A stretch of DNA of 64,000 bases from Pelobates cultripes (lineage: Eukaryota; Chordata; Amphibia; Anura; Pelobatidae). Position numbers and translations under genes: made by a program. Under the pieces are notes generated by a model, which was not told where the DNA came from, searched no databases, and saw nothing but the letters and a program-made list of their open reading frames with translations. The stretch spans positions 113,433,334 through 113,497,333 of the forward strand of contig OW240921.1 in the NCBI GenBank assembly GCA_933207985.1, given 5' to 3'. This document shows, one piece after another, positions 3,258 through 62,289 of the stretch (position 1 is the first letter of the stretch; every line of letters starts with the position of its first letter).

Positions 3258-4927
3258 AATAACATTTTCAACCACGGTTTAGTCACAGGGTAGGAGGATG
3301 GCAAGTATGCTCCTCCAAGGACCTGTGATGAGGTCCAATTCATCACAATTACTTTACTAAAACATAAGAAGTTATTGGGAATTAAAAGACAAACCTATCC
3401 ATGTAGTAGATCAGGGACAGAATTCAGGTCTTTTTGAATATTTATTAATGGTTTATATTCTCTGTCACATAGACATTCACATATCTCAAAAGAATGGATG
3501 GGTCTCTCTATACAGACATTGGTTCTTAATGTGTGATTAGTGAAATGTAATAAAACAATAAACAGTCCGCCGCTTCCCAAATGAAGAGTGCTGTTATTTT
3601 GATAACATTTTATTATCAATTTACAAAATAAGAATAAATAGATTATTTTCCGTGTGCATAGCCCTACTATACTTTAGGTAACAAAATCAGTAGCGTGATG
3701 CCTGAGCTTTGTAATCCTATTGAAGAGCCATTGTCTTCAGGGGAAATTTGTCCAGATGCTTTTTGCATCAGATGTTCATTAAGTTCATTAAGTGTGTTTA
3801 TTTTTACATACATGTTTATGTCTAATTGTTATGTTTAATTTTTGTAATATCAAATAATATTTTGGATATACTGTTATCAGTCTTTTTAATAGGATTGGAA
3901 AATTCAAACATTATTTTCTTCATGGATGATGCACCTCATCATGTATCCTTGATGACACTTTCCCACAGTATGCATGAGTGTATCACAGAGATCCTAAGCA
4001 ATAAAACACTCTTAAGTTAAATCACGGTGTGTATGAGTGTATCACAAAGCTCAACAGACATAAACCTGTGAGCAATGATCAGTATGTATGAGTGCACTAC
4101 AGAGCTCCATAGCAATACATTTCACAATCTCACCAAAACAAAACTCTCAGGAATAGTTTATCAGAGTAATGAAAACACACATTCTATGTGTGCAGAATAA
4201 GGGTGGGAAATAAAAAGCAAAAAAAAAGTTAAAATACATATATAAATTTAAAAGAATGTATCAGTAAAAAAATAACTAAGTGTTTTAGTAATCTCTCACA
4301 GGTGGTATAAATAAGTCTCAAATTAATCAAAACATCATAAATCAACTTCCCCATTTAGGCCATAGGATTAGATGTTTTTTACTTTATTGATCCAAAAGGT
4401 TTCTTTCATCCTATTACTCTTTCTTTAGCTTACCTGTGACAAAAAATGTGATATCCCCAAAAATGCAAGCTTTCTTAAGTAAAATATGAAGAGTATATTT
4501 ATGATTCTTAATTTAATCCGTAATATTATTAAGCAATAATACACCCCCTTACACCCACATATATAAATATGCAAATATATTTATAGTGTTATGCATTACT
4601 TGCACCCAGGTGGTAATCAAGGTCATCAATATAGGAAGAAATATTTTTACCTAACTATATACATAGACATGTTTTGAATATTTGTTTACATATACTGTAG
4701 CTCAGAAATATGACCATCAAATGAATCAATATGTTTATGGACAAACCAAACATTTGCACAAGTCTAATAGATATGGTGAACAATTTGGCAAGACTTATTT
4801 CCAAATAAGTAAAAACAAAATTGAGCTAATCAATGTTCCTTATAAACACATACTACAGATCACGTGTTATATGTGTCTCCATTGTATGTATGTATAAAAG
4901 TTTTAGCCCCCTGGTAATATTTTTCAG
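3258..4927 (+). other. Intron 2 of unit A; no gene seen
   Basis: AT-rich intron sequence aligning almost base for base with 55245-57405 in unit B. The exception is about 480 bp present only in B at 56695-57177. It contains short repeated GAGTGTATCACA-type words near 3970-4090. No coding exon or RNA gene was recognised. Confidence 0.6.
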
Positions 4928-5363
4928 CTTCAAGGGCAATGAAATGGAAAACGCTTTAAGAAGAAATATCTCACACATTCTAAAATGTGATTTCACCAAG
5001 GAAAATATTACAGATCCAGTCATTCTACCAAAAGCAGACTGCGTGGTCAGTTTTTTAGTTTTCCATCTGGTTTCTGAAGATCGAGACGATTACTGCCGGA
5101 ACCTGAAAAAAGTTTCATGCTTGCTAAAACTGGGTGGGCATCTACTGCTATTTGGATTTTTTAAGGGAACATATTGCACCATAGGTGGGAGCAAATATCA
5201 CATATTAACATCTGATAAAACGTCTGTAGAGGAGGCTCTGAGAGATGCAGGATTTGTTATCGAGCACCTGGAAGTGATAGAAAGCAAAATACGCAATGAT
5301 ACAACATATTGTGAACATATGTTTTTTATTAAGGCCTTAAAAGAGAGCAATGTAGTTGTTTAA
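4928..5363 (+). CDS. NNMT/INMT-like methyltransferase, unit A, exon 3 (terminal)
   Basis: Terminal exon opening after a TTTTTCAG acceptor. Joining to exon 2 creates an AGC codon across the junction and stays in frame to TAA at 5361-5363. It encodes the second half of the Rossmann-like fold. Visible landmarks are LKCDF (the LKCDV motif of NNMT/INMT, adenine-contact region), KADCVVS, the LLKLGGHLLLFG motif (family LLKPGG), and EEALRDAGFVIEHLEV, which matches the EAVKEAGYTIEWFEV segment. With a 151-nt exon 1 like that of unit B, the full protein would be about 264 residues, the usual family length. Relative to B most replacements fall within about 45 residues around the presumed acceptor pocket. 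The exon is intact and probably functional if exon 1 exists. Confidence 0.9.
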
Positions 5364-28420: not shown

Positions 28421-29445
28421 TGTGGCAAACCTAGCCACTCGGACTATAACTGGACACTATGCCTTTAAGGGTTGCCTATAGATCTGGAGAGAAGATGCGT
28501 TGTACCTGTATGTGCCTGCTTCATGTATTCCCTGCATTGCCTGTACCTATCTGTTCCGCCGAATGCAAATGGCGGTTTGTATGGGGATTCTCGTTCGTTT
28601 CACGAACGGCACTTTGGAGGGCCGTTCGTGAACGAATGCGATACCCCCTAATAGCCCACACACTTAGAGGCGTGTGGCGCTAGTTAACCGATTGCAACAT
28701 TGTTGCAATCGGTTATTAGAGGCTCTCCTGGGTGGCCGTCGTTCGACTACCGACCATGCGGCGGTCGGCCATCTTGGATCCTTTGTTCCCCAGCGGGGTT
28801 ATGTCGTCGAGCGCCTGGTACTAAAAACGGCTACTCGACGGCATGAGCCCCGCTGAGCCTCCAGGACGTTCGGGAGTTTCGGGACGTTCGGTATTTTGTT
28901 CCATAATAGCAATCGGTTCTTTTTGTATATTTTATGTGAATTGTGTTGTTCGTGCGGCGTTCGGTTAGTTTAGCTGGGATCTGAGCGGTAACCTCACGAA
29001 TGATACCCTCAGACCCCAGCTATCTGCCGAACGTCCATTCGTGTAAATCCACTATATATTCACCAAGTTATTGATTTTTATGCGAATTATCGGTTCTGCT
29101 GCACGAGGGGAGAGTCCACTTAACGGTGCATTCTGGGAAGACTATCCCTCTCGTGCAGCGGTGCCTGATGGGAGAAATATGGTGTAATGTAAGTCCCCCA
29201 TGTAGTCCCCTCCTGTACAACCCCTGTAATGTCAGTTTGGAAACCCCTTGCATGGGGAATTGCATAAATACTGTGACCTGTGATTAAAACCTCAGTTGAC
29301 TCCCAGCCTATGTGTCGTCTAGTTCTTGGGAAGGAAGGGTTACTGCAGTGCTGTTTGGATTAATATATGCTGATTCCCTGGATTATCCTTTGTTGTTCCT
29401 GTTACCCAGCAGAGATATCGTGGATTATACTGCCTCTCCGCTACA
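28421..29445 (+). repeat. 3' LTR of the Gmr1 element
   Basis: 1025 bp, same ends as the 5' LTR. It is preceded by the short purine tract GGGGGAGCAT (28411-28420), the likely plus-strand primer site. It keeps the longer CCGATTGCAACATTGTTGCAATCGG palindrome that the 5' LTR has shortened. It is followed by the GTTAG target duplication. Confidence 0.93.
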
Positions 29446-32400
29446 GTTAGATATGGATAACCAAAGTTGGGGTGGTTCAAAATTCCCCACAATGATACAT
29501 GCTTCTTTAAGTGGAGAAAAAAAAAGAGGAGTAGCAATAGTATTTTCCCACACATTAAAAGTGGACATAATACATCAAATTAAAAATAAGGAAGGTAGAT
29601 ATGTTATAGTCTGTTGTAGATTGAATGAGATATCATATACATTGACTAATATATATCTTCCCAATGATTTTCCTGCCCTAACTTTAAAAAAGGTTTTAAG
29701 TTTAATGGAATCTATCAAAATAGGTACATGTTTGGTGGCTGGGGACTTTAACAGTGTATTGCACCCGATATTAGATAAGAAGACAACTTCAATATTACTA
29801 CATCAAAAAAGAACAGATACATTGGCAAAATCTATTAAGAGAAATATGATTAATTTTGATTATTTTGATCTTTGGATAACGACCAATCCTGATTCATTGG
29901 AATATACGTTTTTTTCACGTGTATATCTTTCGTATTCCCGAATAGATATGGTTTGGGGAAATATGATAGCATTGATGAATATTAAATATTATAAGATACT
30001 TGATAATACTTGGTCAGATCACAGTATTAATATGTGGGAGATGAAGAATCAATGGACCAGGATTGGTCGTGATACTTGGCGTATGGACGATAATTTGTTA
30101 AAATCTAAGATTAATCTTGATATATTGGAAAAACAAATAGCAACCTTCTTCCTTGAAAACGATCCAAATGACACCTCGTATACAAATAACTGGTGTGCTT
30201 TTAAATCCACCATGAGAGGAAACATAATAAGTATACAAACAAGATATAAAGTAGAAAATAATAGATCTTTTATGGTATTACAAGTAGAACTGAAAAAGAC
30301 TGCTAGTAAGAACAAGCAGTTTCCCTCTAAAGAAAATGCAGATGAACTAAAAAGTATTCAGAATAGAATTAATAATTTTCTTATAGCAAAGAATGTAAAA
30401 ATTAGGAATAAACTTAAAGCTAATTACTATTATAAGGGAAACCGAGCAGATAGAATTATGACCAAAAAATTAAGAGATAAAATTGGATCTAATAAAATAG
30501 TAAAGATAGAGGATGAAGATGGGGTATATCTGCACCCAAAAAAAATAGGTGAGAGATTTAATAAGTATTGTGAGGCTCTGTATAATTTAACTCCCTCGAT
30601 AACCAATGAGGAGGATTATTTGAGTAAAATTAATACACCTAAGCTTACAATAGAACAAATTAATAAGTTAAATACTTTAATTACAGCTCAAGAAGTAGAG
30701 GTAGTAATAAATAAATTAAAACCAGATAAGACGCCAGGTCCAGATGGTTTTGCAAATATATTTTATAAATCATTTAAAAAACTTATAGTTCCCCACCTAA
30801 CAGATATGTTTAACGAAATTGTATCAGTTGGTAAATTTCCTACCGAAATGTTGAGTGCAAATATTCTTCCAATTCTTAAAGATAATAAAGATACTCTAAA
30901 GGTAGAAAATTATAGTCCTTAATTAACACAGATGTTAAAAAATTTTCTTCAGTCTTGGCCCACAGATTAAGGGGATTAATGGATAATATAATTAAAAATG
31001 ACCAAATTGGTTTTGTACAAGGCAGAGATCCAGTAGATAACTCTAGAAGATTGTTGGACTTGATAGATGTATCTAGAAGAAATAACAAATCTTTATTTGT
31101 ACTGGCGGTAGATGCCGAGAAAGCATTCGACAGGGTCGGTTGGGATTTTTTAAGGAAAACTATGGAAAAATTTGGAATTCAGGGAAGGATGCTAAATGCT
31201 ATTTTGGCATTATATGAAGGTCCAAAAGCAAGAACAGTGGCCCCAAACATATGCGCAGAGTGGTTTACACTTAAAAATGGTACGAGACAGGGTTGTCCTT
31301 TGTCGCCGATTCTATAAATTATGACAATGGAGATCTTAGCTATTAATATAAGAGACAACCCTCAAATTAAAGGGGATTCAGACTCAAAGAGAAAGAATTC
31401 AAATTAAATCTATATGCAGATGATTTGATATTGACCCTAACCGACCCTGTCGAATCGCTTAAAGCTTTGATGGAAGAGATAGACAAATATAGTCTGATCT
31501 CAAACTATAAAATAAATGCAATTAAATCCACTTTTTTAGCAATAAATATTTCCAGAGACTCTATTCAACAGATTAAAGATAAATATAAATTTAATTGTAA
31601 TAAAAATATGTTATCTTACTTGGGTATAATTCTTACTGATGATGTAAAAGACATGCTCCAAACAAATTTTTTGAAAATATTTAGATCGACACATGAGTCG
31701 TTAAAGAGATGGAGACAAATTGAACTGTCTTGGTGGGGCAGAATTAATTTGGTCAACTCGTATTTACTCCCTAAATGGTCTTATCTATTCCGTATGATCC
31801 CCTTGAGAATGCCACAACCATGGTTATCTATGATACAACGAGATATAAATAATTTTATATGGAAAGGAAAAAGGCAGAGGATGAATAAGCAACTTTTGAT
31901 GCAGAAGAGCAGGAAAGGAGGGATAAATTTCCCAAATGTTAATATAACTTATTTAGCAAATATGATGTTCCATATATATAAGACACAATTACTACGTTCA
32001 GAGGAAGCTGGTTGGTACCAATTAGAAATGGAGATGGCAGAAATGGAAAATTTACATCAATTGATTTGGTTAACTAAACAAGATGAAAGAACCAAAAAGG
32101 CCTGTTCCTCCAATAAATGTCTGAAATCTATACTAATGGAGTGGGAAAAGTTGAGGATTAATAGTGGATTATGTAATAAAATATTGGGAAATTTTAACCT
32201 TAGTATTATCCAACTAAGGATGAAGGATCTAAATTTAAGGGAATGGACAAGGAAAGGTATTGACTCTATAAACCAAATAATAATGGGTGACAAAATTAAA
32301 TCATTTGAAAATTTGATACAAGAATTTTCATTACCTAGGAAGGAGTGGTATAATTATTTAAGAATTGGAAGTTTTATTAAACAATTTTTGCTATACCGAC

Positions 32401-33080
32401 CTACAGTGGGTATAGAAAATTTGATAGTTTTATTAAAAAATGAGAATGTACCGCAAATAGTCTCAAAGGCAAGGACTGCTCTCCTTCAAATTGAAGCTCC
32501 AAATTTAAATGTAAATATCCAAAAATGGAGTAAAGAGCTAAATGTACAGATTCTTAAGTCTGAATGGGATCAAGTATTATATCAAACAAGTAAGATAATT
32601 CATTGTTTGAACATTCTCGAGGTATTATTCAAATTAATGAACCGCTGGTATTTAGTCCCTACCAGACTATCTAAAATGTATACTTCCAATTCTTCAATCT
32701 GTTGGAGATGTAATGAAAAAGAGGTGACTTTTGGACACATATGGTGGGATTGCAGTAAGGTGAAAATTCTGTGGTATATGGCTTTCGAATCACTGGAATA
32801 CATTACAGAAATAAAAATCCCTAGAGGTCATCATAATGGCTTATTCCACTTAAATTTGCAATCACTCCTTTTTAAGGATAAATTTATATACGTCCATTTT
32901 GTAGCAGCAACAAAAATAATAATTGCAAGGAACTGGAAGAGTAGTGCAAATTTTACACAAGCCCAATTATATTCACAAGTTCAATATCAATTAAATATGG
33001 AGGCCTTGGGACATCAGTCAATAAAAATTAGAGACGTTAGTAATTTCTGGAAAGAAAAAGTGGAGAGTATGGTCAGATAA
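29446..33080 (+). pseudogene. L1 ORF2, main part: endonuclease, RT, C-terminal zinc motif
   Basis: It resumes the frame cut at 22820. Endonuclease motifs include CLVAGDFNSVL (29730) and the WSDHSI end (about 30017). RT motifs are TPGPDGFANIFYK (30730), VDAEKAFDRVGW (31110), RQGCPLSPIL (31290) and LYADDLI (31410-31430). The C-terminal CWRCNEKEVTFGHIWWDC motif (32700-32750) is the L1-clade zinc-like motif. The frame shifts near 30920 and between 31317 and 31425, so at least two breaks besides the LTR insertion. ORF2 protein supplies the nickase and RT for target-primed insertion. This copy is dead but fairly young. Confidence 0.88.
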
Positions 33081-34218: not shown

Positions 34219-35735
34219 TTAAATAGTTTTATTTGCCCACCGATTGGATGCAGCACTGAATGGATTAAGGGATCTCTTAAAGGACTTTAGGCTTAGGGAT
34301 GATTTTAAATTGTGCGGGAGGTCGTTCCACAATTGCGGTGCTCTGTAGGAGAAGGAGGATCGGGCCGTTTTCTTTTTGTAATGAGGTAGACTAAGTAAAG
34401 TTTTGGTACTGGATCGGAGTTTATAGGAAGTGTGAACAGCTGGGGAAAGCATTTTGTTCAGGTAGGGTGGGAGTTTCCCAGAAAAGCTCTTAAACACAAG
34501 GCTGGAAAGATGAAGGGTGCGTCTGGATTCCAGCGACAGCCAGTTTAGTTCTTTTAGCATGTCACAATGGTGGGTCCTGTAATTACATTGTAGCACAAAT
34601 CGGCAGAACGAGTTATACAATGTGTTGAGTTTATTAATGTGGGATTGAGATGCAGACGTATATACTACATCCCCATAATCAATGATTGGCATCAGCATTT
34701 GCTGTACAATCTTTTCCTTTACTGTAGGGCTTAGGCAGGATTTGTTTCTGTACAGGGCACCTAGTTTTGGATAAAGTTTAGATGCAAGCTTTTCTATGTG
34801 CAGGCCAAAAGATAGATTGGGGTCTAATATCATACCCAAGTATTTGAAAGAGTGGACTGCGGTCAGTGTGCCATTTGAATTTGTTTTGATGGATAGGTGG
34901 GAATTGTGTAATTTGTGTAATCTGTTCCAAAGATCATTGTGACAGTTTTGTCAGTGTTCAGGAAGAGTTTGTTTTTTGCGATCCACTTTTCTACCTCTGT
35001 AAACTGGTCTTGAAGCACAGCCTCAAGTTGCGGTAGATTGGATTTGCTTGCATAGATTACCGTGTCATCTGCGTACATGTGTACATTTGAGGATTGGCAT
35101 AAATTAGGCAGATCATTTATAAATAATGTAAATAGTAGGTGGCCGAGAATGGAACCCTGGGGAACACCACACATGACTGGGAGAGGGAGGGAGTCGCTGT
35201 CAGAAATGGACACATATTGCGAGCGATCAGATACATACGATCGAAACCAGGTTAGCGAACGATCACCAATACCTGAGTTTTTGAGTTTGTGCAGTAGAAT
35301 GTCATGGTCTACTGTGTCAAAGGCCTTAGCAAAATCAAGGAAAATAGCTCCAGTTAGGTCTCCTTGTTCCATGCCAGTTTGGATGTCATTGCAAACTTTT
35401 AAGAGGGCAGTTGTAGTGGAGTGATTCTGGCGGAAGCCCGATTGATCAGGGTTCAGATAGTTGAATTGTTGGTAGTACTCACAAAGTTGCATATGGACAC
35501 ATTTTTCTAAGATTTTTGACAATACCGGGAGCAATGATATTGGGCGATAGTTAGAAACCAAAGTAGTGTCACCACTTTTATGGATAGGCACTACTCTCGC
35601 AGTCTTCCAAATTTGGGGTATGTATCCAGACACCAAGGATTCGTTAATTAGAGTTGAGACGGGCTTAGCAATTGCCGGCACACTGAGCTTCGACAGCATT
35701 GCTGGGATTTGATCGGGTCCAGACTGGTTTTTCAT
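34219..35735 (-). pseudogene. CR1/L2-group LINE reverse transcriptase
   Basis: Two frames on the minus strand. 35735-34863 has QSGPDQIPA, NYRPISLLPVLSKILEKC, SGFRQNHSTTTAL, FLDFAKAFDTVDHDILL, GVPQGSILGHLLFTLFINDLP and MYADDTVIYA, the RT palm with its YADD catalytic box. 34839-34219 has the C-terminal GMILDPNLSFGLHIEKL and APQLWNDLPHNLKSSLSLKSFK blocks. A frameshift lies between them near 34850. The motif set fits the CR1/L2/Rex branch; finer assignment needs a tree. Confidence 0.85.
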
Positions 35736-35928
35736 TTTTAGATTATTAAGATGTTTTTAATGACACTAACAGGTACAGGTCTAAAAATAAACTTGTCTAT
35801 ATTGGGCCTTTGCAAATTTAGTGGGACCTGATCCACATTTGTAGTTTCAGAATGCGTATCATTTATTAGCTTGGCAATCAGAGCAGTAGAGCATCCGACA
35901 AAGTAATTGTTAAAGGCATTTGCTACAT

Positions 35929-36330
35929 CTAAGGGAAGTTGCAGGGTTTGACAGTGGAGGGTTGGGAGTGGATTGGGGGAGTTTGTAGTTTATTTATGAC
36001 TTTCCAAAAGTTTTTAGGGTTTGAGATGTTATTGTTGAGATTCTCATAGAAATATTGGGCCTTGGCCAATTTTGTCTGTTTTGTGCATATATTTCGCCAT
36101 TGTCTATATGCACAGTGATCATTCCTAGAGCCACTACGCTTAAACTTTGACCACAAAGAATCCCGAAACTGGTACATTTGGATAAGGTCAGCTGTGATCC
36201 AGTTCAGATGTGCTCCTTTTACCCTCACCTTACGCAGCGGGGCATGCAAATTGCAAATTTGTAAGAGTTCAGACTGAAAGAATTCAACAGCACAGTCTAG
36301 ATCTGGAATAATGTTTAATCTGTGCCATGG
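35929..36330 (-). pseudogene. LINE linker between endonuclease and RT
   Basis: Minus-strand frame with LHAPLRKVRVKGAHLNWIT and DLIQMYQFRDSLWSKFKRS, then WRNICTKQTKLAKAQYF and NPKNFWKVINKL. This is the conserved segment between the endonuclease and RT of CR1-type LINEs. The endonuclease itself is absent (5' truncation). A stop and gap at 35736-35928 separate it from the RT frame. Confidence 0.75.
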
Positions 36331-36388
36331 GAGGCATAATGCTGGCAAAGCATCAGGAGAGATGCAGTCCATCTGAAGTTTCAAATGT

Positions 36389-36402
36389 TTATTTTATATA
36401 AG
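36389..36402. repeat. Target-site duplication of the PLE, left copy
   Basis: TTATTTTATATAAG, identical at 42030-42043 on the other side of the Penelope-like element. 14 bp. Confidence 0.85.
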
Positions 36403-37210
36403 TACTAGAAAATGACTTTCCTGTTACTGGTCACTGAAACCAGAACCAGGACTGTCAGCTGGACAAAATATTAGTAAATAATAAATAATTAAATCAAAAT
36501 TGCCATCAATATGTCGGAATATAGAGAGGGTTCATATGTAGATTCAAGTGATTAAAATAGCCTAAATGGCTCTTCTCCTGTCTAAAGGACTCTTAGACGT
36601 AAAGAATCTATTTGAGACTCAGGACTTTAATATAATCAACCATAGTATGTCCATGTCAACAGTAAAAGCGGTTGTGGAATGAGCCTTTAAATTAACTCCT
36701 GTAATCTAGATGGAAAAGACAATCAGTCAAAGAGGAACTTTGAATAGTGGCTGTATATAAAGTAACACTTGTAGCAAAGCCCGCTGTATCAAAAAAGCTA
36801 CAATAAGAGTGTAGTTAAGCAATCAGCAATTAAGGATAACAGCATTTAGCTGGATACCAAGTAACATATAATAAAAGGAAAAAAGTCTACATGAAAATTC
36901 GTAGATTAATCACAAAATATGTCATAAATGATAAATCTTAAGTTAGTGGTTTCCTAAATCGCTATGGGGTACAAAGAGTATCTGTTGCCCCCTCAAATAC
37001 ATACAGAGCCAGTCCAGATTCCTCAATCAAATAGATAGTTCCAATCTAGATAGCATATCAGGAGTGACAGGAGGAAAAGGTGAAAAATTAGGAAATAATA
37101 GTGCTAATGTGTAGAACCATGCTTAGAGTGCTGGTTACCTACACATCGTGAAATAGTGCCCTAGAAGTGAAAATAAAAAGTGAGTGAAAGTGAAGGAGAA
37201 AAACCTCCTT

Positions 37211-37257
37211 CAACCCGACGCGCGTTTCGGTGCTGTGATGCACCTTCGTCAGGGGCT
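37211..37257 (-). ncRNA. Hammerhead ribozyme in the PLE 3' region
   Basis: Read on the minus strand: CUGACGA core at 37252-37246, stem II GGUGC/GCACC with a 6-nt loop, the GAAA core box, a very short stem III (ACGCGCG, minimal type), then GUC as cleavage triplet (37219-37217). Stem I closes with AGCCC against GGGUU (five pairs, one G-U). Every invariant core position I can check is kept. Minimal hammerheads with tiny stem III are the form described in PLEs, where they are thought to process the RNA. It lies 3' of the ORFs, in the expected terminal-repeat region. Confidence 0.85.
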
Positions 37258-38610
37258 GAATTCGTTATGGACCCTAGACCTTGTTTAAATACCCCTGGTA
37301 TTGTAACTGTTGAGAGGATTCCACCAATCAGGGTTCCTATGTGGACCGTCAGTCGGCGCCAAAATGACGTCAGAATATGCTAATTCGCTGTTTAAATAAA
37401 AAAATAAAAAATAAAAAAAAGGCTCCAATCAGGGTTAAGTCCACCTCTACATTGTGTGGTTTATATTTAACCCTGTATGTACTCATTGGATGGAGTGACT
37501 TGCTTCATAAAATAGGGAAAGGACGAAGGTGAATATATCTGTGTAAATTTTATAATCAGAGACGGATGATTCGTCAAGACATTTGTATCATGTAAAGTCA
37601 GTGTATTGCTATCGCAAGGCATTGTTTGAGAAGTAGACGGTTCATCATGGGTTATCTGGACGCCTGTAGGATCATGAGAATGGGTAGAGAGGCTTTGAGC
37701 GAAAAACCTCTAAAAAGTGGAAATAAGGGATTTTAACCCTCGCTCAGCCATGGGGACCTAATACCTATCCCAGGATATCATAAGGATTATATAAATATGG
37801 GTGGTCAGGTTAACTGTACTTCCTATTAGGGTAATGATCATTTCATTATCAAGCCTCATTCTCGATTTACGGGCGGAATTAACCCCCGCTATACTGTTCT
37901 TAGCAGTCATGTGAAAATAGTAATAGCTGAGCTTATACCCAAAATTCCCATGTGCGGGTATTATCAAATGGCTTGGTGATCGTAAAAAAATTGCCAGATA
38001 CTCATATACCAGTGTGTCTACATAAATACTAGGTAATGAATGCCTCTGATATACATAATCAAATATTGAGGCTTTTTATAATGCAGATAAATTCGTCAGT
38101 TCTTATTCTTACTAAATGGAGATTAGTATTTCGATAATCGAAATTTGTCCAGCCATTCCCGTTGGCAGTATCAATTCAATTTGTCAATTTAGATGGCTGG
38201 TACGTTGGGCTAGTCCATATATCCATATAACGTGTATAGTATTATAAATAGGAGATGGAGGGAAAAGTAGCATACGACATATTAAATTTTAAGTAATTTA
38301 TATAACTTTTAATGGATCATGTGTCATCATGGGATCAGAGTGATCGGTCATGTGTAAGTCTTACTGGACATAATTTACTCAAATGAGTGAGTTATATAGT
38401 ATATTTAAAGTGTATCCAGAAGATACCCACTAGACAGGCTATAATAATGAGGGCTGTATACCTTCTTTGAGCCACTAGGGGTCAGTCACAGACATACCAG
38501 GGGTAAATTTCCATATTGAATGTATCTAAGTGGTATTTACTCTTTTGATGGATTAATTTCCAATTATTAAATAGTAAATTAATGAAGTGTTGCTAGGGAA
38601 GAACCGGTAT
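37258..38610 (-). other. PLE 3' noncoding region
   Basis: Between the hammerhead and the GIY-YIG frame. AT-rich, no gene recognised; short open frames are not conserved. 36403-37210 beyond the ribozyme is likewise noncoding and runs to the 3' end of the element. Confidence 0.6.
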
Positions 38611-39246
38611 TTAATCAGGGATAAAGGGAGTGTATGAAAATCCTTCGTTAATGCCCAAGGGGGATAAAGTTTTTAATTTAAATATCCAGAAGCTCTCTCG
38701 CTGTAAGAGTCTTTTGTCCAGATCTCCCTTCCTTGGTCCCAACTTTATTTTTTCTACTCCATTAAAGCGTAAGCCCTGTGCAGAGCCGGCATGTTTAATT
38801 TTCAAATGTCTTGATATAGATGTATCTATCTGTCTGGATGGATTCACAGAGTTTATGTGTTCAAGGATGCGGGTTTTAAACTGTCTGAAAGTCTTCCCCA
38901 CGTATTTCAAATTGCAACTGCAAGTAATGAGGTATATTAGGCCCTCGGTTTTGCAGTTAAAGAAGGTTTTAGTTGTATGTATCTCAGTATTATCCGAGTT
39001 AGAGAATGATTTCGATTGTTTCCGGATAAATTTACAGGCCTTACACTTGCCGCACTGAAAGGTGCCGGCAGCAGGCGATTTAAGCCAGGTGTTAATAGGT
39101 TTTGGGAGAGATAAATGGCTTGGAACCAAAATATCTTTTAAGTTCTGACCCCTCCTTGCTGTAATCGATACGTGGGGTGTCAGCACATCCTTCAGATGTG
39201 TATCTTGGTACAGTAGTGGCCAGAATCTCTCTAGTGTTTTTTTCAT
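38611..39246 (-). CDS. PLE GIY-YIG endonuclease domain
   Basis: 211 codons. A zinc-like cluster CGKCKACKF lies at about residues 70-78. The GIY-YIG core follows: GLIYLITCSCNLKYVGKT (about 108-125; here the 'GIY' is GLIY and 'YIG' is YVG), then RQFKTRILEHI (catalytic Arg region) and RLLQRESFWIFKLKTLSPLG with the conserved glutamate (RES), ending in GINEG. PLE endonucleases nick the target for priming. In related elements this domain is fused to the RT. Here it is separated from it by a TGA at the end of the RT frame and a shift at a run of 10 G (39306-39315). The annotated ATG is therefore only the first one in this frame, not a true start. Confidence 0.88.
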   Translation of the reverse strand: MKKTLERFWPLLYQDTHLKDVLTPHVSITARRGQNLKDILVPSHLSLPKPINTWLKSPAAGTFQCGKCKACKFIRKQSKSFSNSDNTEIHTTKTFFNCKTEGLIYLITCSCNLKYVGKTFRQFKTRILEHINSVNPSRQIDTSISRHLKIKHAGSAQGLRFNGVEKIKLGPRKGDLDKRLLQRESFWIFKLKTLSPLGINEGFSYTPFIPD

Positions 39247-39391
39247 ACCGTCCCAACCCGAATCAAAGGTTCCAATACATCTTATTATTTCCTGATTTTT
39301 GTTTTGGGGGGGGGGACTTTTCGGACAGAAGGTTGGTCCTTTCAGTAGCTAGTGCCCTGTGATAAGCTCTTTTTAGACACTTGTTTGGATA

Positions 39392-40960
39392 TCACTTGGC
39401 TTTAAAAAGGGATCTCAGGGTCTGTGCTTTTATTTTAAAATCTTCTTGGGAGGAACAATTCCTCCTTAGTCTGAGATATTGGCCTGTCGGTATCCCACTT
39501 TTTAAAGCAGGGGGGTGATGACTCTCCCAGTTCAGAAAGTTATTGGTTGCGGTTGGTTTTTTGAAAAGCGTGGTGGTGAAATCGTTGTTATGAGAAATTT
39601 CGAGAGTTAGGTCCAAAAAATTCAGTCTTTTCTCTCCTATATCGAAAGTGAATTTAAGGTTAATCTCATTCACATTGAGTACTTCCACGAATTCATGGAA
39701 TAGATCAATCGGACCTGTCCACACTATCAAAATGTCATCGATATAGCGTTTCCATAGGTTTATGTGTACGCTAAATTTATCGAGACTAGGGTTGAAGACA
39801 ATGTTACTTTCCCACCACCCCAGGTGAAGGTTGGCATAGGATGGTGCACAAGTCGTACCCATCGCTGTGCCCTTCACCTGGTGATAGTAGTTGCCTTTAA
39901 AGAGGAAGTAATTATGAGTCAATATAAACCTCAACAGTCTGAGGACAAACTCATTGTGTTCATTGCGGGTAGGGTCTCTCATATACAGAAACGTTCTAAC
40001 GTGTCTGATACCAACATCATGGGGAATAGAACTATACAGACCCTCAACATCTAGGCTACAAAGGCTTGCTTTGGCCGGAATTTTCATATCTTTGAGGATG
40101 CTGAGGGTCTGCTTAGTGTCTCTCAAATGAGAAGGAAGAGACTTAACTAGATCACGAAGGATGTGTTCAATATACACACTACAATTCTGCGTCAGATTGT
40201 TATTGCCTGAAACGATAGGTCTCCCTGACAATGTTTTGTGCTGTTTATGAATTTTTGGTAAAGCATAAAATGTAGCTATCACTGGTTTTTTATTGAACAT
40301 AAATTTAAATTCATCCTTAGAAATGAGATTGGACTGAAGTGCTTCCTCTAGTATTCCTTTTAATTCATTTAGATATTTAGCTGTGGGGTCTGAGCTCAGA
40401 ATCATATATGTGTCTTTGTCGTCTAGGATTCTGCTGACCATTTCAATATAAGCGGTTTTATTCATAACGACTATGTTGCCCCCTTTGTCTGAAGCCTTTA
40501 TGATAATTGAGTCATTCTGTCTTAGTGTATTGAGAGCTTTTCTTTCAGCTTGACTCAAATTATCAAAATGGTCAGAGGAATAAAAATCATCACTCATACC
40601 CTCAATTTCTTTGCATGTCAGTTCAACAAAGAGGTCGATGTATTTAAACTCCGAAATATATGGTGTGAATTTACTTCTAAGTTTCAGATTCGTGAAGGGT
40701 GCTTGCTTCTTCGTAGGGAGGTCATTGCTGTTGAGGAGATCAACTAGATTGTCAAGAAGATCCATATCCTTAACCTCCAACCCCAGTCTTAATGCCTTTT
40801 TAGATTTTTGAATCTCATGAAACTTATGTAACGCCAACTTGCGTGCGAAAAGATGGATGTCCTTTGTCCACACAAACTTATCGAACTTGGGTGTAGGGAC
40901 AAAGGCCAGCCCTCTTCCAAGCACCTGGGACTCAAGGGGAGTGAGTTGATGAGACGACAA
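39392..40960 (-). CDS. PLE reverse transcriptase, 522 aa
   Basis: An open frame of 522 codons carrying PLE RT signatures in order: IIIKASDKGGNIVVMNK (about 150), FYALPKIHK and RPIVSGNNNLTQNCS (about 232-262), CSLDVEGLYSSIPH (about 302, first catalytic Asp), KGTAMGTTCAPSYANL (about 364), and WKRYIDDILIVW (about 407, the YIDD catalytic pair), followed by LNFLDLTLE. PLE RTs are related to telomerase RT and use target priming. The ATG is 24 nt after the ORF1 stop. The frame ends in TGA where related proteins would continue into the endonuclease. Confidence 0.93.
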   Translation of the reverse strand: MSSHQLTPLESQVLGRGLAFVPTPKFDKFVWTKDIHLFARKLALHKFHEIQKSKKALRLGLEVKDMDLLDNLVDLLNSNDLPTKKQAPFTNLKLRSKFTPYISEFKYIDLFVELTCKEIEGMSDDFYSSDHFDNLSQAERKALNTLRQNDSIIIKASDKGGNIVVMNKTAYIEMVSRILDDKDTYMILSSDPTAKYLNELKGILEEALQSNLISKDEFKFMFNKKPVIATFYALPKIHKQHKTLSGRPIVSGNNNLTQNCSVYIEHILRDLVKSLPSHLRDTKQTLSILKDMKIPAKASLCSLDVEGLYSSIPHDVGIRHVRTFLYMRDPTRNEHNEFVLRLLRFILTHNYFLFKGNYYHQVKGTAMGTTCAPSYANLHLGWWESNIVFNPSLDKFSVHINLWKRYIDDILIVWTGPIDLFHEFVEVLNVNEINLKFTFDIGEKRLNFLDLTLEISHNNDFTTTLFKKPTATNNFLNWESHHPPALKSGIPTGQYLRLRRNCSSQEDFKIKAQTLRSLFKAK

Positions 40961-40983
40961 ATTAATGATCTGGCTACTTTGTA

Positions 40984-41754
40984 TTAATAAGCTTTTCTCC
41001 TTTTGTATCCTCGTGTTGAGGTTTTGCTTCTTGTGTTTCTTTGGCTTTTCTCCTCTGTATTCGTTCTTTCTAAAAAATTAAACCCTTTCTTAAGGATACT
41101 TTTAGGATTACCCTCTGCTGACGTTGAGGGGCTTTCTTGGTTTGAATCAGGCTCTGATGCACTGGAGTCGTACTCTGATGTGGAGAATCTATCAAAGTCT
41201 ACTCTCTTGCTTTTAAATTTGCGGTAGATATTACCAGTTTGAAAATCTTTTGTATCTCTCATGAATTTGGAGTGTTTCCTAAGTTTAATTGATGTTTGAA
41301 ACTTATCTAGATTGGTTTTGAGTTTTATCTCAAATTGTTCGAAGTTGGGTTCGTTTTTGTACGTCTGGACTTTTTCAATCTCCTCGTCCACCTCTTTATT
41401 AACTCTCTCTAGTCTCTTAGTTTCGTACCTACATAAAATATCCATGAATTTTTTTGAGCATGTTCCTGCTGCCTCTTCCCATTCTTTAATAAACTCGGAT
41501 TCTTCAATATGTGGGGCAGGGATATTTTGAACCCTCAAACCTCTTGGAATAAGTTCCTTACTTAGATATTTTTCTAAGGAAGCTATCTCCCAACCTGCTT
41601 TAATTTGCTGTTTAAATAAGAATGTTAAGTGGTTGAATGCTGAGTTTATATTTGTATGAGTGATATTCTCTTGCAAGTGCCCCTCAGAGAAGACTGAGTC
41701 TATGTCAGAGTACCAGGCATCCCTTGACGTTTTATCTGATAGAAAACCGGCCAT
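40984..41754 (-). CDS. PLE ORF1, upstream protein of unknown function, 256 aa
   Basis: An intact frame immediately upstream of the RT frame, 55 nt inside the terminal palindrome. It is rich in charged residues, with an acidic/serine stretch (SEYDSSASEPDSNQESPSTS, about 190-210) and a basic C-terminus (RSKTSTRGYKRRKAY). The middle (about 85-165) is predicted-helical, possibly coiled coil (ETKRLERVNKEVDEEIEKVQ). I do not recognise a named domain. A leading ORF1 is known in some PLEs. A nucleic-acid-binding or particle role is a guess. Confidence 0.75.
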   Translation of the reverse strand: MAGFLSDKTSRDAWYSDIDSVFSEGHLQENITHTNINSAFNHLTFLFKQQIKAGWEIASLEKYLSKELIPRGLRVQNIPAPHIEESEFIKEWEEAAGTCSKKFMDILCRYETKRLERVNKEVDEEIEKVQTYKNEPNFEQFEIKLKTNLDKFQTSIKLRKHSKFMRDTKDFQTGNIYRKFKSKRVDFDRFSTSEYDSSASEPDSNQESPSTSAEGNPKSILKKGFNFLERTNTEEKSQRNTRSKTSTRGYKRRKAY

Positions 41755-41808
41755 AACCAGGCAACACTTAAAAGGTGATATGGTACTGAAACCAATTTAA
41801 CAAAAAAA

Positions 41809-42029
41809 GTAGTAGAAATTGACTAGGCCAAAGGTAGTGGTTATTCCAGACTTGAATATACCACCCTCCTAGTGGTCAGTCACACTTTTGAATGACACTC
41901 CAGTGGTGTCAAGGGGTTATGCCCCTTGACACCACTGGAGTGTCATTCAAAGGTGTGACTGACCACTAGGAGGGTGGTATATTCAAGTCTGGAATAACCA
42001 CTACCTTTGGCCTAGTCAATTTCTACTAC
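41809..42029. repeat. 221-bp near-perfect palindrome at the PLE 5' end
   Basis: Starts GTAGTAGAAATTGACTAGG and ends with its reverse complement. The centre is at CAAGGGGTTATGCCCCTTG (about 41919) and I see one mismatch between the arms (CACACTTTTG against CACACCTTTG). Inverted terminal sequence at the 5' end is a known feature of PLEs. Here the arms are adjacent, so it would form a long hairpin. Confidence 0.9.
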
Positions 42030-42043
42030 TTATTTTATATAAG
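42030..42043. repeat. Target-site duplication of the PLE, right copy
   Basis: TTATTTTATATAAG, the partner of 36389-36402. Confidence 0.85.
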
Positions 42044-50055: not shown

Positions 50056-50559
50056 ATTTTTTAACTATATATATATATAAACATGTATAAAGAAAACAAG
50101 AAGAGAGGATAAAAAAGATATATAACAAGTAATCTATGTAAAATAAAAAGTAAACAAAAACACAAAAAAGGAAGAGTGGAAATCTGATGAGAATACACAT
50201 AGGAGGAATATATAAGATAAAATGCATATATGAGGAGAGAATATGCATCAATGAAAGCAATCTTAATTAAAAGGAAAACAACCATAATTTAAAATATATG
50301 AAATAAAATAAAAAATATGAAATAAGGACATACATTGTAAAAACATTGGTAGATGCATAAAAATTACACAGAATGTTAATCTTTGGAGATATATTAACAG
50401 AAATTTGCAGAATTTAGAGGTGCCAAGGTACCAGGGTTCTGTAAAATAAAAGCAGATGTGTAAAAACGCTAAAGACTGACTGGTACATAAAAATTACATA
50501 AAAAGTACATATTAAGAATATTTTTACAGGAAATGAAAAAGATCAAAGTCTACATTTAA
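50056..50559. other. PLE noncoding remnant
   Basis: AT-rich sequence between the L1 tail and the decayed GIY-YIG segment. Probably the 3' noncoding part of the old PLE on the minus strand. No gene seen. Confidence 0.4.
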
Positions 50560-50975
50560 CCCTTGAGGTGCCAAGGTGCCAAGATTAAATACCCAGTTTA
50601 TTTCTTTTCTAAGTTTAAGTTTTGATAGGTTACCACCTCGCCATGGGAGAGACACTTTCTCTATGGCATAGAATTTTAAAAGACTAGGATCTTTGTTATA
50701 AATTTAGACACAGAGTAGTTAATGTTGCCTTTTTTAAAAATATATTTCTGCCATGCTAAGCAATGCAAGTTTTAAAATTTCTTCTGGTCATGCCGACATA
50801 TTATAATATACAAGGGCATTCCAATACATAAATGACATTTGTGGAATTACAGGTAATGAAGCCTTTTATGTTGTATTCACAAGGTGAGTGCTTAGATTTA
50901 AAAGTAGTAAGCTTGGTAAAGTTATTGTTGGAACTCCTGCATCCTAGGCATGTCTAAAAAACATTATGTTGATTA
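50560..50975 (-). pseudogene. Decayed PLE GIY-YIG endonuclease
   Basis: Read on the minus strand, near 50870-50740, the sequence gives FITCNSTNVIYVLECPC, a stop, YVGMTRRNFKTCIA, a stop, then HGRNI. This matches the GIY-YIG core of Penelope-like elements (VIY...CPC...YVG.T.R..K.RI.EH..NI), with at least two in-frame stops. Upstream on the same strand, a cysteine-containing stretch (CLGCRSS, about 50940) fits the zinc-like region that precedes this domain. It is clearly inactive. Confidence 0.65.
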
Positions 50976-61269: not shown

Positions 61270-61940
61270 CAGGGGTAGGCAACCCCGGATGCTGTGGAGT
61301 ACACTTACCATATGTCAGGATTACTAATTGATCCAGCACGTAGGATTGTGTCACACCTAGGACTAAAAGGTAACGTATAACCAGGCCTTAGAATGACTTA
61401 ACGCACCAAAGAATAGTCAAGATCCTTCCCGAGGTCGGGGGTTACAGAATGGGACACAACGATAAGGGAAAGCCAAAAGTCAGGAATACCAGAATAAAGA
61501 GAAGTCAAAAAAAGCCAAAGTCAATAACCAGAAATAAACGATCCGGATCACACTCTCGGACAACCACTAAAGGAAACCACGACAGGGCAATGTGGAAAAG
61601 AAGAATTATGTTTAAATAAGCCCTTAAAAAAATTTGATTGGTTGAAATCGGCCTTTGACCCCAGAATGTGCGCACATGTCTCCTGCGTGATGTCACACAC
61701 ACGCCGACGTCGTCATCAACGTGGGCGGATGTGGGGCTATAATTGGGTGTGGATCAACAGCGACCAGCATCCATCAAAATGTTGCAAGAGTCAGTTATGC
61801 AGACGAACGGCCGCTGAGCGCAAATACCGCAAGGTGATGAAGTATATATTACACCATAATGCTCTTAGAGGCATAATTCTGGCAAAGCATCAGGAGAGAT
61901 GTAGTCCACAACATCTGGAGTGACGAAGGTTGCCGACCCC
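61270..61940. mobile_element. hAT-type non-autonomous transposon, itself interrupted
   Basis: CAGGGGTAGGCAACC at the left and GGTTGCCGACCCC at the right are hAT-style inverted ends. CTCTAGTG and CTCTAGGA outside them form an imperfect 8-bp target duplication. The inner flanks CCGGATGCTGTGGAGTACA and GTCCACAACATCTGGAGT pair as longer arms. About 61320-61840 between them holds a further repeat (ACCAGAAATAA, ATACCAGAATAAAG words). There is no transposase. A trace of the right part (GGCAAAGCATCAGGAGAG) is also at 36345 in the A-B spacer. Confidence 0.6.
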
Positions 61941-62289
61941 CTCTAGGATATAGTTTTTTGACTTTGCTTATTTGTTAATTGTTTTTTCTTTATTTGCAGA
62001 GCTAGAGAGAAATATACTTCTTAACTTTCTTCTGTGACTTAAAAAAAAAGTTGTACACAATAAACAGCTGGATATTTTGGGGCACGGTAGAGAGTGCCTG
62101 AAAATTCTGTGCTGCATTCATCAGGCCCCTGAAGGTTAGGTTGGATTTCTGTCTTTTCCTAATGCTGTATTGATAAAGAAGGCCACAAAAGACATACTTC
62201 CTGAAATCATCATGTATTGACAAGAGAATTACAAAATGTGGGGTATTTTGGCTCAAATGTTGCATTTCTAGTAAGTTGGTCACATTTCA

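Follow-up and report, generated by a model that had tools for sequence, protein, structure and literature searches.

The Penelope-like element and its family

The window, i.e. the whole 64-kb stretch of Pelobates cultripes DNA that was analysed, contains an insertion of a Penelope-like element (PLE) with a minimal hammerhead motif on its minus strand (Table 1). The copy is 5'-truncated, its open reading frame is broken and its only hammerhead lies downstream of that frame. The target duplications of 14 nt are exact, as reported in the sequence-only reading that was followed up here, and a related repeat copy without the PLE at 61857-62015 has aligning flanks that differ in a few bases at the insertion point. 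The further hallmarks of PLEs, i.e. pseudo-LTRs (pLTRs) or tandem units, an inverted copy at the 5' end and a tail, were found as well. The inverted arm of 108 nt has a single mismatch to its direct counterpart, which suggests a young copy.

The reverse transcriptase (RT) frame has 536 relatives at E ≤ 0.001, the best with 49% identity over 93% (Leptobrachium). Wherever an organism is named among the 120 relatives in the list, it is an amphibian, with the exception of one fish; the closest named relatives are anuran. The match to the Pfam family RVT_1 reaches 24.7 bits, under the cut-off of 29.6; judged from its sequence, the frame qualifies as a PLE-type reverse transcriptase. The endonuclease frame gave no GIY-YIG match in Pfam, but it aligns to the C-terminal part of all five full-length relatives tried, and PF01541, which we take to be GIY-YIG, occurs in four other relatives among the 120 listed. 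Solved structures matching the RT or endonuclease frames were not found. An upstream frame is apparently the first ORF of the element; no homologue of it was found at E ≤ 0.001. The ORFs had been described as nearly intact, a view that an in-frame stop and a frame change contradict.

Table 1 Features of the PLE insertion and its hammerhead motif, in window positions
Feature	Position	Strand	Basis
Target-site duplication (TSD), left, TTATTTTATATAAG	36389..36402	+	
PLE insertion, 5627 bp	36403..42029	-	TSD, related repeat without insert, PLE-type RT relatives, same unit at genome loci
Reverse-transcription start box 1, GTCATTTTCTAGTA, 3' end of insertion	36403..36416	-	
Stable hairpin competing with distal stem I (predicted)	37191..37212	-	fold
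Minimal type I hammerhead, whole with stem I	37209..37260	-	Rfam model, consensus pattern, fold, descriptor
Stem I, 3' arm, GGGUUGAA	37209..37216	-	fold
Predicted cleavage bond, 37217 (C17) / 37216	37216..37217	-	sequence
Stem III, ACGCGCGU; predicted 2 bp and 4-nt loop in the monomer, perfect 8-nt palindrome in the dimer	37218..37225	-	fold
Core GAA (G12-A14)	37226..37228	-	fold
Stem II, 5 bp GGUGC/GCACC, 6-nt loop AUCACA	37229..37244	-	fold
Extra A at the junction of A9 and stem II	37245..37245	-	fold; family arms compared
Core CUGACGA (C3-A9)	37246..37252	-	Rfam match and fold
Stem I, 5' arm, UUCAGCCC	37253..37260	-	fold; 5' stops in 32/94 arms
TATA-like box, TATTTAAA, first T 31 nt upstream of 37260	37284..37291	-	
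Promoter-like cluster	37324..37372	-	inverted CCAAT 37324-37328, TTTGGCGCC 37355-37363, TGACGTCA 37365-37372
GIY-YIG-like endonuclease frame	38611..39348	-	stop and frame change separate it from the RT frame
Reverse transcriptase frame	39392..41077	-	Pfam, relatives, alignment
Upstream open frame, 270 aa, overlaps the RT frame	40984..41796	-	
Direct arm of the 5' inverted repeat	41809..41916	-	
Reverse-transcription start box 2, GTCAATTTCTACTA, 12/14 like box 1 by eye	41810..41823	-	
Short inverted cDNA arm	41922..42029	+	
Target-site duplication, right, TTATTTTATATAAG	42030..42043	+	

Further mobile elements lie in the window. An older second PLE remnant (the endonuclease end) at 50527-50953 on the minus strand aligns to the same relatives as the window PLE; no hammerhead was found within the surrounding 4 kb. 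A LINE-like element at 29300-33080 (plus strand) has weak endonuclease and RT matches, and a LINE-like RT element at 34219-36393 (minus strand) adjoins the PLE insertion point.

The family is represented by more than 100 exact-word copies in the 3.1-Gb genome. A motif query of 151 bp returned 691 candidates in the 3.09-Gb genome, and the 40 that were scored were all 100% identical. The sequence-only reading had called the element young, and this identity supports a very young family. The head-to-head arms at seven loci are 99.25-99.96% identical, differences compatible with an origin from the same RNA as well as from different RNAs. Same-orientation hammerheads spaced 5542, 5543, 5545 and 5584 bp apart indicate tandem units, as read at the fetched loci, where 19 nt separate the element end from the leader that follows it. 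A hybrid origin of the element had at first been suggested by the lack of a significant alignment between its 3' part and the 5' leader (the best one was equalled by 18 of 300 shuffles), but it was rejected, as the tandem junction of 19 nt in the genome copies provides the explanation. One head-to-head junction is common to two loci (C1:185288040 and C3:282085226), which may represent a segmental duplication or an assembly duplicate. The ends at C6:42212025 and C2:272125477 also have an identical flank.

The hammerhead motif and its predicted folds

On the minus strand, from 37260 to 37209, the motif has the order UUCAGCCC-CUGACGA-A-GGUGC-AUCACA-GCACC-GAA-ACGCGCGU-C/GGGUUGAA. The strand, CUGACGA, the perfect 5-bp stem II, GAA(A), the tiny stem III (2 bp), GUC and the cleavage position had all been recognized in the sequence-only reading, and each is borne out by the fold, the descriptor or the sequence itself. 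The extent of 37211-37257 given there placed the motif correctly but not its ends, since stem I has 8 bp including one G-U pair (37260-37253 with 37216-37209). The three helices of 8, 5 and 2 bp with an open stem I correspond to the type I layout, and the type I features CUGACGA, GAA, A15.1-U16.1 as an A-U pair and the NUH site as GUC are present; positions such as A9 and C17 follow the hammerhead numbering. The type I consensus has no insertion between A9 and stem II, a feature that is not strictly defining, and here the extra A at 37245 departs from it. The core, previously described as intact, thus contains one nucleotide that had been overlooked, and the same A was present in all 81 family arms compared (91 anchored arms less 10 with an early end, an N or a gap). 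A viroid hammerhead reportedly also has an extra core nucleotide.

The check proposed in the sequence-only reading, a search with the Rfam covariance model, gave a divided result. In cmscan with all families at the gathering level, no match was obtained within the 64-kb window, whereas a scan of a 7-kb stretch at E ≤ 10 matched the full model (1-45) of RF00163 Hammerhead_1 at 37258-37211 on the minus strand with 22.9 bits and E=0.054, which falls short of the gathering score of 34 bits, a detection threshold and not a biological definition. The consensus hammerhead pattern matched once in the 64 kb against 0.05 expected, and a descriptor of all stems had a single match within the window. With stem I of at least 6 and stem II of at least 5, none of 400 dinucleotide shuffles matched; at the laxer setting of at least 4 for both, 13 of 400 did. 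By these counts the hammerhead motif is real and not a product of chance. Neither Rfam nor the consensus pattern revealed a second hammerhead anywhere in the window, not even next to the PLE fragment at 50.5 kb. Relatives of the motif were not found in viral contigs (one exact pattern) or in plasmids. Five bacterial matches in GTDB contigs were judged to be chance; none had proper stems by eye.

The predicted fold of a single-copy RNA is a rod that pairs G5-G8 with the cleavage-site strand (pairing probability of G5-C17 0.966), with a z of -3.56 and none of 200 shuffles as stable. In energies that leave out the non-canonical pairs in the core of a folded hammerhead, the hammerhead form of the monomer lies at -15.9 against -22.3 kcal/mol for the minimum free energy (a gap of 6.4), whereas the two-strand hammerhead reaches -49.9 against -50.5 kcal/mol, reducing the gap to 0.6. 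The octamer ACGCGCGU of stem III is self-complementary, and dimerization is predicted to relieve the pairing of G5 with the cleavage-site C. Amphibian and PLE hammerheads are described, in the available parts of the respective papers, as acting poorly alone and perhaps working as dimers (PMC7229834, PMC6155905, PMC7761336), and the predicted fold of the motif fits such weak single-copy and possible dimer action. The accessible text of the study on an Anolis PLE states that its hammerhead showed no cleavage without protein (PMC11167929). The same text mentions that self-cleavage of a PLE hammerhead at 3-25 mM Mg2+ had earlier been seen by the same group, and hence protein is perhaps not always required (PMC11167929).

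Ends of genomic copies

Insertion ends of young copies were read as records of the copied RNA. Element coordinates (el) equal 42030 minus the window position. An exact 35-mer starting at the cleavage bond was found at 128 genome places, so that only young copies were sampled, and 94 distinct arms were read. As many as 32 of the 94 end at el 4767-4785 (window 37263-37245), with 31 distinct junctions; in 24 of the 32, element DNA lies directly upstream, mostly the head-to-head partner arm. When 91 arms were extended with gaps from a second anchor farther downstream, 39 ends came to lie in el 4701-4933 (one at an N run), of which 25 fall in a 16-nt window against 2.7 expected if the ends were uniform over el 4701-4933. 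Apparent ends at el 4608-4662 were an artefact of ungapped extension across an A/T-rich stretch with indels. A pattern count of arms starting at the equivalent of 37260 was dropped, as the readable ones among its 115 matches were mostly from an apparent sister subfamily. This subfamily (115 places; letters seen for part of them) has the same hammerhead start TTCAGCCCCTGACGAAGG with other bases just upstream.

Stem I begins at el 4770 (37260), 31 nt past the first T of TATTTAAA, and a distance of this size from a TATA box to the start is usual. Further upstream lies the promoter-like cluster, with what we take to be an inverted CCAAT box and other promoter motifs. The arms stop near 37260, at this distance from the TATA-like box, and the hammerhead therefore probably forms the beginning of the RNA; the simplest reading of the pile-up of DNA ends is an RNA that begins at about 37260, with the hammerhead as its first 52 nt.

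The first 35-mer is blind to ends just inside the cleavage bond, and therefore a word at el 4934-4968 was used too (148 places, 100 taken, 97 of the 100 examined, one of the 97 through a pattern match with intact GTC). One arm that was read (C3:20040897, plus strand) starts exactly at the equivalent of 37216, and its partner ends near el 4828; the T run of this head-to-head pair (C3:20040650-20040900) is longer than usual. Another arm borders an N run and its end is ambiguous. Seven other ends lie in el 4815-4933 (119 nt, 97 places; three of the seven read by eye), which puts the chance of one end at a given base at about 0.06. Genome-wide, two arms (the one read and one by 21 letters only) matched a pattern for a start at the bond that requires three changed bases before it, and the same pattern moved to the next base had no match. 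A pattern three bases past the bond (el 4817) gave 4 matches against 14 for its reversed control, i.e. chance level. The bond-start pattern by design misses 58% of such arms (42% sensitivity), so that about five arms, or 3%, are estimated to stop at the bond. In comparison, 136 copies run past it with GTC|GGG intact. The copied RNAs were thus mostly uncut and, as far as the arms reveal, cut templates are rare. Two exact stops are too few to prove or exclude a low activity in cells, and cleaved RNA might exist yet be poorly copied.

The 3' ends of the arms cluster at two boxes, GTCATTTTCTAGTAC and GTCAATTTCTACTAC, which lie about 127 nt apart in tandem units. The box search gave 35 and 24 distinct ends at the two boxes. 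By extension of the 91 arms, 33 and 20 end at the boxes and 28 at the edge of the data, seven continue as tandems, two have internal breaks and one ends between the boxes. In all 13 insertions for which both ends and a shared flank were read, one end belongs to each box type (P ~8e-5 if ends were independent; the tally counts pairs sharing at least 8 nt of flank, 10-13 found), and the window copy obeys the same rule. That one of the inverted pLTRs may carry a tail is already known (PMC3846280, in the part available), and two start sites without a strand difference are reported from the Anolis PLE in vitro in the accessible text of PMC11167929. No statement of a strict one-of-each count with a shared box, and no footprint of cDNA ends as evidence on PLE hammerheads, was found in the literature searched, which covered papers other than the PLE hammerhead studies of 2014 and 2017.

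Interpretation and relation to known hammerheads

The reading that we favour, and hold to be moderately probable, is that a PLE-type minimal hammerhead occupies about +1 to +52 of an RNA made from a pLTR promoter, is latent there, and that each insertion uses uncut read-through RNA and two reverse transcriptions. The promoter in the pLTR would start the RNA at about 37260. The ribozyme of a single copy would be latent because G5-G8 pair with the cleavage strand, and its activity would require either the pairing of two copies by way of the palindromic stem III (in tandem units about 5.5 kb apart) or help from the PLE protein. A productive round of transposition would require read-through RNA with the internal hammerhead uncut, as a cut RNA would retain no more than 0.8-0.95 kb upstream of the sites where reverse transcription begins. 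Each insertion would then consist of two reverse transcriptions, one per target strand, from box 1 and box 2. For the Anolis PLE, the available text reports that hammerhead mutants had no effect on insertion in vitro, that the authors regard unprocessed RNA as the dominant substrate, and that reverse transcription starts internally at two adjacent sites and on both strands (PMC11167929). A further step, in which the hammerhead is not a processing enzyme but a 5'-terminal lock whose silence preserves tandem read-through RNA, and the two-strand insertion is ordered by priming from box 1 on one target strand and from box 2 on the other, is put forward tentatively and is less probable than the reading on which it builds.

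An efficient self-cleaving ribozyme, which would define the RNA 5' end and release unit-length RNAs from tandem transcripts, appears quite unlikely. The consensus core is complete apart from the extra A, it has no changes in 957 positions compared, and of the bond-stop arms one was read exactly at the 5' end of the product and a second came from the pattern, with none at the next base. However, the change rate is already low, at 0.002 for the motif and 0.0016 for the 70 nt beside it, and in so young a family the absence of core changes means little. The 136 copies past the bond against two found stops (about five after correction for the 42% sensitivity), the predicted sequestration of the cleavage site in the monomer, and the fact that efficient cutting would prevent copying of the ORF all speak against it. 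The sequence-only reading had presented the motif as a good candidate for an active ribozyme. In that form the claim is not borne out, given the extra A, the monomer fold 6.4 kcal/mol below the hammerhead, the single hammerhead after a broken ORF and the few stops at the bond, and the earlier interpretation of the motif is thus supported in part.

Catalysis might also be incidental, the motif serving as an RNA structure such as a 5' leader hairpin bound by a PLE protein or a translation leader. The place of the motif at the probable first RNA base, its stable rod-like fold and the normal insertion of the Anolis hammerhead mutants in vitro, as given in the available part of PMC11167929, would agree with this; yet such a structure would not need a hammerhead core with GUC, which the accessible parts of PMC6155905 and PMC7761336 describe as conserved in PLEs, and we regard it as unlikely. 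Very improbable, in turn, is that the pile-up reflects stalling of the reverse transcriptase on the folded motif and not a transcription start. The stable fold and the scatter of ends across about 16-19 nt would suit stalling, but the enzyme comes from the 3' side, so that it should stall no later than the 3' arm of stem I (at about 37209 and lower positions), and the motif had already been copied before the observed stop. Few ends of that kind were found, 4 of 91 at el 4821-4933, in a set chosen mostly by a word that is blind to them, and 7 at 97 places in the less biased sample, and the TATA-like box stands at the usual distance.

PLE hammerheads are known already, and the useful part of the present case is the evidence that the RNA probably begins with the motif and that, in the templates that were copied, the motif was mostly left uncut. 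The minimal PLE hammerheads described earlier (Cervera and de la Pena 2014; Lunse et al. 2017), compared here through papers citing them, are likewise of type I with a tiny stem III, located in the PLE pLTR and proposed to act as dimers. The window motif would differ from them in its position at the probable first RNA base, its extra A and its record of insertion ends. Closest in arrangement is the Poseidon PLE PAc of Anolis carolinensis, for which the available text describes a hammerhead at the junction of pLTR and ORF, a 'tail' bounded by two internal reverse-transcription starts, extension on both strands and uncut RNA as the main template (PMC11167929). In PAc, according to the same text, the hammerhead overlaps the ORF start and one reverse-transcription start lies 111-118 bp into the ORF, whereas in the window PLE about 1 kb separates the motif from the assumed ORF start downstream, and the reverse-transcription starts lie in the leader, about 127 nt apart.

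With more than 100 cDNA ends, the young family resembles an experiment already done, in which RNA start, cutting and reverse-transcription start sites can be read. Its outcome, a probable start at the ribozyme, mostly uncut templates and one start of each type, agrees with the in vitro study of a purified PLE protein, as far as that text is available, and extends it (PMC11167929). The approach is repeatable in other PLE-rich genomes. If the tentative lock reading were true, the ends of genomic arms would offer a general in-genome assay of ribozyme use in any animal with young PLEs.

Other relatives share single traits with the window element. The hammerheads of newt and axolotl satellites and retrozymes are, in the part of PMC7229834 at hand, also amphibian, of type I, weak in stem III and better as dimers, but they belong to short tandem repeats and not to an autonomous PLE. 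Those of Xenopus tropicalis come from a frog and are tied to interspersed repeats, with no PLE named in the available text (PMC3088659). The Penelope elements of Adineta vaga have pLTRs, an inverted 5' copy, a TSD, a TATA-like box in the pLTR and an optional tail on one of the inverted pLTRs; in the accessible part of that paper a hammerhead is mentioned nowhere, and the one-of-each rule is counted here (PMC3846280).
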